Shown piece after piece: positions 13,419 through 17,589 of a stretch of 34,871 nt of DNA. Position 1 is the stretch's first letter. Each line of letters opens with the position of its first letter. Both the position numbers and the translations under genes were made by a program. Source of the stretch: Spirochaetia bacterium (lineage in GTDB: Bacteria; Spirochaetota; Spirochaetia; Treponematales; Treponemataceae); assembly GCA_022768685.1 (NCBI GenBank), contig JALEPQ010000117.1, positions 1 through 34,871 on the forward strand, in the 5' to 3' direction. The notes under the pieces are model-generated. The model did not search any database and was not told where the DNA came from. It worked only from the letters and a program-made list of their open reading frames with translations.

Positions 13419-13491
13419 TAGCGACCAATGGGATTGAACCATTGACCGTACGGATATGAGCCGTATGCTCTACCAACTGAGCTAGGTCGCC
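13419..13491 (-). tRNA. tRNA with anticodon CAT (probably elongator Met)
   Basis: 73 bases, full cloverleaf on the minus strand: acceptor GGCGACC/GGTCGCT (first pair G-U), D-stem GCTC/GAGC, anticodon arm TACGG-CTCATAT-CCGTA, T-arm AATGG-TTCAATC-CCATT, discriminator A. CCA is not encoded. Anticodon CAT is shared by elongator Met, initiator Met and lysidine-modified Ile2. The paired first base argues against the initiator; Ile2 cannot be excluded. Confidence 0.92.
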
Positions 13492-13576: not shown

Positions 13577-13591
13577 TGGCACAAAAATTGC
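13577..13591 (+). promoter_or_regulatory. Sigma-54 (RpoN) promoter
   Basis: TGGCAC (13577-13582), five A, TTGC (13588-13591), giving GG-N10-GC, the exact -24/-12 spacing of sigma-54 promoters; the extended form TTGGCAC...TTGCT also matches. Transcription should start near 13603, about 30 bases ahead of the ATG at 13633. No other site of this quality was noticed in the window. A sigma-54 promoter implies an enhancer-binding activator; I did not identify its binding site. Confidence 0.85.
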
Positions 13592-13632
13592 TTATTAAAT
13601 TGCATATTTATTAAAAAAATGGAGTAAAAAAA

Positions 13633-14553
13633 ATGTACAAATTTAACCAAATCCCTTCCCGACTGAAAAACAATGATATTACAATTCATGAAGCTTCAAA
13701 TCTTATTGCAGAATTTGTTATTAAAAATCAGCCCTTATTCAATCTTGATTCTTATGATGATGATTTCAAATCTGAAATTTATCTGCGGATTCTTGAATCA
13801 GGAAGCAGAATTTTTTCCTCCTATGAACCTGAAAGCGGAAGTTTTTTTTCATATTTTTATTGCTGCTTATTATCCATGATTTCAACGCAGATCAAAAAAG
13901 AGGCAATAAAATCATTAAATTTCGCAGTCATATCAGATGAATGTATAAAAAATTATGATGAAAAAATCATTTCATACTCAAATATTAATACTGAAACTTA
14001 TGCCGCAGAAAAACAGAAAATTGAATCAACATTAAAAGGAAAACTATGTTATAAAACAACAAATATCAACAAAAAAGATAAAATGATTTTAGTAATAGCA
14101 CTTAAATCATCTTTTTTTATAACAGATGAACAAATAAAAAGAGTTGCAAAGATTTATAATCTGACATATTCAGAACTGTATGATGTAATTCAGAAATTAA
14201 AGGAAGATTTATTATATAAACAGGATAGAAAAACTATGTATGTAGAACGAAGAAACAAGGCTTATTACTATCACAAAAGATATGAAAATCAGATAGACAG
14301 AATAAAAAAATCAAAAGAAGAGTTGTGTAAAGAATCGTTATTAAAAAATTTATACAGAAAAAATGAATTACATGAAAAAAGATGGCAGAATTACAACAAA
14401 AAATTACAAAACGGTTATATTCACATACGACCTTCTAATAAAACAATTGCAGGAATACTTGGAATTTGTGAACGCCAGGTAGCGTACTATCTTTTTTGCG
14501 GAAAAAATACAAATAAAACAATAGAATCCTATGAAAAACCCATGAAAGTATGA
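13633..14553 (+). CDS. Sigma-70-like / DNA-binding protein under RpoN control
   Basis: 306 residues, very Lys/Asn/Tyr-rich. Residues about 42-92 (DDDFKSEIYLRILESG..F..YEPESGSFFSYFYCCLLSMI) resemble sigma-70 region 2, where a DDxxxEhhLR helix is followed by an aromatic G-S-F-x-x-Y segment. The middle (about 155-200) is helical and could be a region 3/4-like helix-turn-helix. The C-terminus (about 264-290, SNKTIAGILGICERQVAYYLF) is a convincing helix-turn-helix. A basic helical stretch (about 205-255) separates the two. A GGAG site precedes the ATG and a strong sigma-54 promoter lies upstream. I do not recognise the family by name; an atypical alternative sigma factor or transcription regulator is the best guess. 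Confidence 0.5.
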   Translation: MYKFNQIPSRLKNNDITIHEASNLIAEFVIKNQPLFNLDSYDDDFKSEIYLRILESGSRIFSSYEPESGSFFSYFYCCLLSMISTQIKKEAIKSLNFAVISDECIKNYDEKIISYSNINTETYAAEKQKIESTLKGKLCYKTTNINKKDKMILVIALKSSFFITDEQIKRVAKIYNLTYSELYDVIQKLKEDLLYKQDRKTMYVERRNKAYYYHKRYENQIDRIKKSKEELCKESLLKNLYRKNELHEKRWQNYNKKLQNGYIHIRPSNKTIAGILGICERQVAYYLFCGKNTNKTIESYEKPMKV

Positions 14554-15452: not shown

Positions 15453-16313
15453 ATGGTTATCAACCACAACATGTCGGCAATGTTTGCCAATCGTAATCTC
15501 GGAGTAACTGGAACTAGTATCACAAAAGATATGGAAAAGTTATCTTCAGGAGAAAGAATCAACCGTGCAGGTGATGATGCTTCAGGACTTGCTGTATCTG
15601 AAAAGATGCGCAGCCAGATCAGAGGTTTGAATCAGGCTTCTACAAACGCTTCAAACGGCATTAGCTTTATTCAGACAACTGAAGGATATCTTCAGGAAAC
15701 AACAGATATTATGCAGAGAATTCGTGAACTTGCAGTTCAGTCTTCAAACGGTATCTACTCTGACGAAGATCGTATGCAGATTCAGGTAGAAGTTTCTGCT
15801 CTTGTATCAGAAGTTGATCGAATTGCAAGCACAGCCCAGTTCAATGGCATGAACATGCTTACTGGACGTTTCGCTCAGGCTACAGGAGAAAATTCTGTTA
15901 CTGCTTCTATGTGGTTCCACATTGGTGCTAACATGGATCAGAGAGTTCAGGTATTTATCGGAACTATGACAGCTGAAGCTCTTGGTGTTCGCGAAATTGG
16001 TACAGAAGAAAAGCTTTCTCTTGCCACACCGGAAGATGCCAACCGTGCAATCGGAACTATCGACGAAGCTATGAAAAAGATCAACAAACAGCGTGCTGAT
16101 CTTGGTGCTTATCAGAACCGTCTTGAAATGACAGTTAAAGGATTGGATATTGGAGCTGAAAACTTACAGGCTTCAGAATCTCGCATCCGTGATACAGACA
16201 TGGCTAACCAGATGGTTGAATTCACTAAAAACTCAGTATTACAGCAGGCTGGAACAGCAATGTTGGCTCAGGCTAACTCTCAGTCTCAGAATGTACTTAG
16301 TTTATTGAGATAA
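15453..16313 (+). CDS. flaB: Flagellar filament core protein FlaB (copy 1)
   Basis: 286 residues. The N-terminal [20 protein letters not shown] with [20 protein letters not shown] (D0/D1 helices), and the C-terminal [20 protein letters not shown] ending in NVLSLLR, are the conserved flagellin ends. The variable centre is very short, as in spirochaetal periplasmic core flagellins. There is no signal peptide, as expected for export by the flagellar type III system. It has its own long leader with predicted CsrA sites over the ribosome binding site, and is followed by a very stable hairpin (16409-16449), so it is probably a separate transcript from flaB copy 2. Confidence 0.96.
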
Positions 16314-16740: not shown

Positions 16741-17589
16741 ATGATTATTAATCACAACATGAGTTCACTTTATGCTGATCGTGTATTGAACATTTCAAAT
16801 GAGTCAATCATGAACAACATGGAAAAACTCTCTTCTGGAGAACGCATCAATCGTGCCGGAGATGATGCTTCTGGATTAGCTGTATCTGAAAAGATGCGCA
16901 GCCAGATCCGCGGACTTAATCAGGCAAGCAAGAACATTGAAAATGGTGTTTCTTTCATTCAGACAACTGAAGGTTATTTGACTGAAACAACAGACATTTT
17001 ACAGCGTGTTCGTGAACTTGCAGTTCAGTCAGCTAACGGTATCTACAGCGATGAAGATCGTATGCAGATTCAAGTAGAAGTATCACAGTTGGTAGCTGAA
17101 GTTGACCGCATTGCCAGTCAGGCTCAGTTCAACGGTATGAATATGTTAACTGGAAGATTTGCTTCTGAATCAGACAGCATTATGCAGTTCCAGATTGGAG
17201 CTAATGTTGACCAGAATGCACGTGTATTCATCGGTACAATGACAGCTCAGGCTCTTGGTCTTAAAGGAGCTCAGGGTGGCGATGAACAGATTTCTATTGC
17301 AAGTCCTGAAGAAGCAAACATGACACTTGCTGCTGTTGATGCTGCATTAACAAGTGTAACAAAACAGAGAGCAGATCTTGGTGCTTATCAGAACCGCTTT
17401 GAATTAGCTGCAAAAGGTGTAAATATTGCTGCAGAAAACACTCAGGCATCAGAAAGCCGTATTCGCGATACAGACATGGCTTCAGAAATGGTTGAGTTTA
17501 CAAAGAACCAGATTCTCACACAAGCTGGTACAGCAATGCTTTCACAGGCTAACTCACAGTCACAGACAGTTCTTTCTTTATTGAAATAA
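16741..17589 (+). CDS. flaB: Flagellar filament core protein FlaB (copy 2)
   Basis: 282 residues, a paralogue of the preceding flaB with nearly identical N-terminal ([20 protein letters not shown]) and C-terminal ([27 protein letters not shown]) helices; the differences are concentrated in the middle. Treponemes build the filament core from several FlaB isoforms. A GGAGGG ribosome binding site precedes the start, without the strong CsrA-type hairpin seen at copy 1, so the two isoforms may be controlled differently. A clear intrinsic terminator follows (17641-17676). Confidence 0.96.

Follow-up and report, generated by a model that had tools for sequence, protein, structure and literature searches.

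A conserved sigma-54 promoter upstream of a diverged sigma-70-superfamily gene suggests a treponeme RpoN-to-sigma cascade

In the Lyme spirochete Borrelia burgdorferi, the Rrp2-RpoN-RpoS cascade places a sigma-70-type gene under a sigma-54 promoter (PMC3037356, PMC12655853). Another spirochete, Leptospira, possesses an EbpA-RpoN pathway that acts on amtB and lipoprotein genes rather than on sigma genes (PMC12655853). For treponemes, no RpoN-to-sigma cascade was found in the open-access literature; subscription papers could hold one. In Escherichia coli, sigma-54 promoters are found at rpoH and at the small heat-shock gene ibpB, where they are secondary to other promoters. Here, we examined a 34,871-nt stretch of DNA from a Spirochaetia bacterium (hereafter the window), for which a possible sigma-54-to-sigma cascade had been put forward. 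This proposal, which stays a prediction, is supported by a conserved promoter, by the presence of rpoN and of an activator, and by a canonical sigma gene carrying the same promoter. Our main reading, to which we give about two chances in three, is that the window gene is an RpoN target encoding a diverged member of the sigma-70 superfamily within an RpoN stress regulon.

The window's genome (G000) shares several traits with the Borrelia system: it belongs to a spirochete with few activators, and an Rrp2-type receiver-AAA activator is present. The rpoN gene was detected in 281 of the 291 genomes of the order, including this one, where a single full receiver-AAA-Fis activator is accompanied by two shorter candidates. 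However, Borrelia RpoS is a standard group-2 sigma, whereas the window protein comes from a sigma-like family that has diverged. In this genome, Borrelia rpoS has its closer counterpart in a canonical 281-aa sigma gene on contig C197, which also has a palindromic enhancer candidate. A canonical group-2 sigma gene behind a sigma-54 promoter, the arrangement that characterizes a Borrelia-type cascade, is found on C197 and not at the window gene. As in the Leptospira EbpA-RpoN pathway, a spirochete RpoN regulon would be associated with an enhancer-binding protein; as for rpoH and ibpB of E. coli, whose lineage is distant, sigma-54 would drive a small heat-shock gene as well as a sigma gene. In the same assembly, contigs C9, C69 and C99 carry two or three non-identical RpoD genes or gene fragments and may reflect a strain mixture.

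The locus comprises the following features:

13419 to 13491, reverse strand: tRNA-Met gene (ARAGORN), divergent to the promoter; genomic context outside the proposed circuit
13577 to 13591, forward strand: sigma-54 -24/-12 promoter element TGGCAC-N5-TTGC, an exact match conserved before orthologs
13621 to 13624, forward strand: GGAG, ribosome-binding sequence
13633 to 14553, forward strand: open reading frame for a 306-aa putative diverged sigma-70-superfamily protein of a wide family

The element, TGGCACAAAAATTGC, is an exact sigma-54 -24/-12 sequence with correct GG-to-GC spacing, and 41 nt separate the last base of TTGC from the ATG at 13633, in agreement with the original description of an ideal element at the right distance. 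The transcription start is predicted at about 13602. TGGCAC-N5-TTGC has a single exact match in the whole window and five in the 2.28-Mb genome, the reversed control pattern having two. Downstream of the window gene lie a Ham1-family gene and a flagellin gene. The latter, confirmed by Pfam (15453-16313), is followed by an open reading frame of similar size (16741-17589), both being shortly downstream of the sigma-like gene.

The predicted architecture of the protein is as follows:

13633 to 13926, forward strand: residues 1-98, fold predicted as sigma region 2; D44, an acid at 48 and F71 are nearly invariant (AlphaFold2, VIA-align, column counts)
14071 to 14154, forward strand: residues 147-174, first of two HTH-like segments, read as region 3 or as the first half of region 4 (helices modelled at 147-158 and 165-174; distant homolog L203)
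14167 to 14409, forward strand: residues 179-259, basic helical hairpin, long and antiparallel (helices modelled at 179-226 and 233-259)
14428 to 14529, forward strand: residues 266-299, C-terminal HTH resembling region 4.2, PSNKTIAGILGICERQVAYYL (model, hhalign, weak Sigma70_r4_2 matches)

AlphaFold2 modelled the full protein (30 orthologs, pLDDT 87.9) and the N-terminal domain alone (63 sequences, pLDDT 89.9). A sigma region 2 fold, which could have been lacking, was found in both models. When the N-terminal domain was compared with known structures using VIA-align, the best 14 matches were all sigma factors (Z 7.7 to 4.9 over 73-112 residues), the first non-sigma match coming at Z 4.9. SigK (Z 7.7 over 85 residues), sigma-E (Z 7.7 over 88), gp55 (Z 7.3 over 112) and ShbA (Z 7.3 over 108) were followed by SigI6, BldN, RpoS and SigA, with SigW also among the matches. 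Against sigma-E, the full model aligned at its two ends (Z 8.1), a hinge making the rmsd large. Foldseek gave no significant E-value for the full model or for the domain, the best sigma match being at 1.6. Since Z-scores are moderate and these E-values are not significant, the argument for region 2 rests on the specificity of the matches and not on their score. Furthermore, the columns of this region are strongly kept among 98 sequences: D44 in 89, D or E48 in 91, F71 in 93 and Y or F74 in 97. These positions occupy what we take, from established knowledge, to be conserved sigma-70 region 2.2 positions that contact the beta' clamp.

The rest of the protein is less conventional. The long basic spacer noticed initially corresponds to the hairpin, whose structural matches are of the coiled-coil type and nothing else. 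The C-terminal helix-turn-helix, also anticipated, appears in the model, its positions are likewise kept in the family, and hhalign aligns it, weakly, with region 4.2 of canonical treponeme sigmas. Moreover, the distant homolog L203 has a Sigma70_r4_2 match in the part corresponding to residues 147-174, and this model also has weak matches among members of the window family. Region 4 is non-standard, being split, duplicated or followed by the hairpin, in agreement with the first impression that no clear standard region 4 was present. In a short homolog, the sigma-70 model covers almost the entire protein; an insertion-split region 4 is thus plausible in the window family. The order of the segments is that of sigma factors.

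Profile searches, suggested as a check, gave a divided answer. The window protein alone has nothing above the curated cut-offs (Pfam region 2 and region 4 models, NCBIfam TIGR02937), its Pfam search yielding only a sub-threshold HTH_28 match. At the level of the family, 12 of 30 orthologs match the sigma70-ECF model TIGR02937 (E up to 1, best 8.8e-10), one distant homolog exceeds its cut-off (2e-12; 47 bits versus 42.9) and a further homolog from the phylum reaches 3e-9. Two family members match PhyR_sigma-like weakly, and a PDB sequence search with the family profile returned weak HTH and SigA matches and nothing else. Within the genus, 84 of 85 good genomes carry the family, with orthologs at about 20-40% identity; within the order, 169 of 178 genomes do, a count that takes weak f3/f4 matches at face value. 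The family is absent from a 1.1-Mb Treponema pallidum-like genome and reaches across the whole phylum. It is a Spirochaetota family that is near-universal in the order.

Taken together, predicted structure and family-level profile matches support the view that the window protein is a diverged relative within the sigma-70 superfamily. Like ECF (group 4) sigmas, it shows a region 2 fold followed by an HTH, and several members and distant homologs match TIGR02937. Unlike them, proteins of the family are about 300 aa long and carry two HTH-like segments as well as the long hairpin, and the window member falls below the TIGR02937 cut-off. The window protein should therefore be labeled neither RpoS nor an ECF sigma. 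It likely works as a sigma factor itself. A serious if unlikely alternative is that RpoN drives the gene and that the product is a sigma-derived accessory factor, or a sigma mimic, that modulates another sigma; it would then bind RNA polymerase or DNA, PhyR-type sigma-like domains offering a comparison. The strong divergence, the non-standard region 4, the long basic hairpin, the two weak PhyR_sigma-like matches and the lack of a sigma profile match for the window protein alone would all suit such a factor. However, the conservation of region 2 (D44, D/E48, F71) and of the C-terminal HTH positions in sigma segment order, as well as a distant homolog above a sigma-70 superfamily cut-off, argue for a sigma factor. 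No target promoter of the window protein was found, and the neighboring genes searched have Pfam matches to DHH/DHHA1, Ham1 and flagellin only, with no anti-sigma among them.

The promoter element is conserved among orthologs. In oriented loci, an exact core lies no more than 150 bp upstream of the start in 16 of 30 orthologs (0.01 expected); allowing one mismatch raises this to 21 of 30 (0.12 expected). In a larger set, allowing one mismatch and 120 bp from the start, the element precedes 42 of 58 orthologs in the window's genus, where about 0.15 would be expected. Outside the genus, it precedes 13 of 23 orthologs from the same taxonomic family. Together, these make 55 of 81, with about 0.2 expected; the background rate, 0.0025 per 120 bp, was taken from the same loci. 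These counts are far above expectation and therefore indicate a real element and not a chance match. The consensus of the 55 sites, acTTGGCAC(G/A)NNNNTTGC(T/A), is the sigma-54 consensus. Treponema vincentii OMZ 806, the only named genome matched with the narrower family alignment, carries a one-mismatch site, TGGCATATATCTTGC, directly upstream of its homolog. The genes upstream vary between orthologs, and the -24/-12 element is what is kept. When the upstream regions of the family were searched for motifs, the tRNA neighbor dominated the result, and no other clear motif emerged after masking. In sister families, the element was found within 120 bp of the start in none of the 16 homologs tested, the protein itself being kept.

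Other genes of the genome carry the same promoter. The C197 site is exact and located 39 bp upstream of the canonical group-2 sigma gene (L120:4393-5292), whose product has regions 1.2, 2, 3 and 4. Orthologs of this gene have a site within 150 bp in 14 of 15 cases in the family and in 9 of 10 in four other families. Contigs C120 and C135 each carry one exact site upstream of an Hsp20 gene (L118:3297-3843; L119:3658-4201), and 15 of 16 Hsp20 genes of relatives have such a site. The fifth exact match of the genome falls within the fmt gene of contig C59 and is presumably due to chance, as most matches within open reading frames of relatives also seem to be. In eight relatives, the intergenic exact sites mostly precede canonical sigma, Hsp20 or window-family genes; in other genera, they precede these same three types as well as PspA-like and peroxiredoxin-like genes, the last two recognized by eye. 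Since the canonical sigma gene carries the same promoter, the treponeme RpoN-to-sigma cascade, predicted and probably similar to that of the Lyme spirochete, does not depend on the window gene alone.

Several further sites were observed. In L272 (G298), one lies 63 bp upstream of a gene that looks PspA-like by eye, and in some treponemes (L150, L165, L190) sigma-54 sites also precede sigma genes of a second type, which resemble RpoH by eye. In the T. pallidum-like genome (L268, about 1496, reverse strand), a TTGGCATGGTTTTTGC site lies 25 bp upstream of a gene that is Dps/TpF1-like by eye, which suggests a remnant RpoN stress regulon lacking the window family. A recurring TGGCACGAAAGTTGC was rejected as a promoter because it belongs to a dispersed inverted repeat that mimics a sigma-54 site. 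This repeat, with arms TGGCACGAAAGTTGC and GCAACTTTCGTG, occurs in several treponeme genera (L140, L149, L151, L172, L180, L181), and no Rfam match was obtained in the four loci searched.

Comparison of upstream regions (L206-L265) revealed a palindrome, GTGTCA-N3-TGACAC, 84-253 bp upstream of the canonical sigma and Hsp20 promoters. With at most two mismatches, it is present at 21 of 27 canonical sigma genes (0.3 expected), and it was found at 11 of 27 Hsp20 genes (0 expected). Its position and shape are those expected for an activator site, making it a candidate enhancer. The predicted circuit formed by the canonical sigma, Hsp20 and this palindrome is kept across the order. Upstream of the window family, the palindrome was found in none of 96 cases at two mismatches; hence, either a different activator is used or activation needs no fixed site. 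Certain sigma-54 activators do work without an upstream activator site.

The lack of this shared enhancer at the window family, together with the absence of the element within 120 bp in about a quarter of the genus orthologs and in 16 of 16 sister-family homologs, could also mean that the element is real and secondary, transcription coming mostly from a sigma-70 promoter or from read-through to which RpoN adds. We consider this improbable, given that the element is conserved amid varied upstream genes and that sigma-70-like boxes around the window promoter are no more frequent than by chance. Finally, that promoter match and sigma likeness are both coincidental in an ordinary HTH protein, as the lone HTH_28 match might suggest, is refuted by these results, short of systematic error, with the element at 55 of 81 loci where about 0.2 were expected, 12 of 30 members matching one sigma superfamily model and structural matches specific to sigmas.

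If the window gene is an RpoN target encoding a sigma-like protein, the following scheme can be proposed. In response to a stress signal, an AAA+ activator in the cell would act on the sigma-54 holoenzyme, opening it at the -24/-12 element, and the sigma-like protein would be produced as a result. This protein would bind RNA polymerase through region 2, with D44 and the acid at 48 turned toward the beta' clamp helices, and its HTH segments would recognize promoters, directing or modulating a second tier of transcription. The canonical group-2 sigma and Hsp20, which have the same promoter type, would act alongside it in one RpoN stress regulon. The window gene would be switched on by RpoN in the window's taxonomic family, and the canonical sigma and Hsp20 throughout the order. 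More tentatively, an order-wide RpoN circuit may have been joined, in the window's family, by a second, hairpin-split sigma subgroup captured via a different activator input. If true, one sigma-54 would control two sigma outputs.

These data provide a concrete and testable RpoN regulon in treponemes, where the role of RpoN is little known. This regulon would include a canonical sigma, small heat-shock proteins and the sigma-like protein. All would share a defined promoter, and the canonical sigma and small heat-shock genes also a defined enhancer. Furthermore, the sigma-70 superfamily would gain a new diverged subgroup that was previously unrecognized. Hence, RpoN-to-sigma chains may be viewed as a general design of spirochetes rather than a peculiarity of Borrelia.
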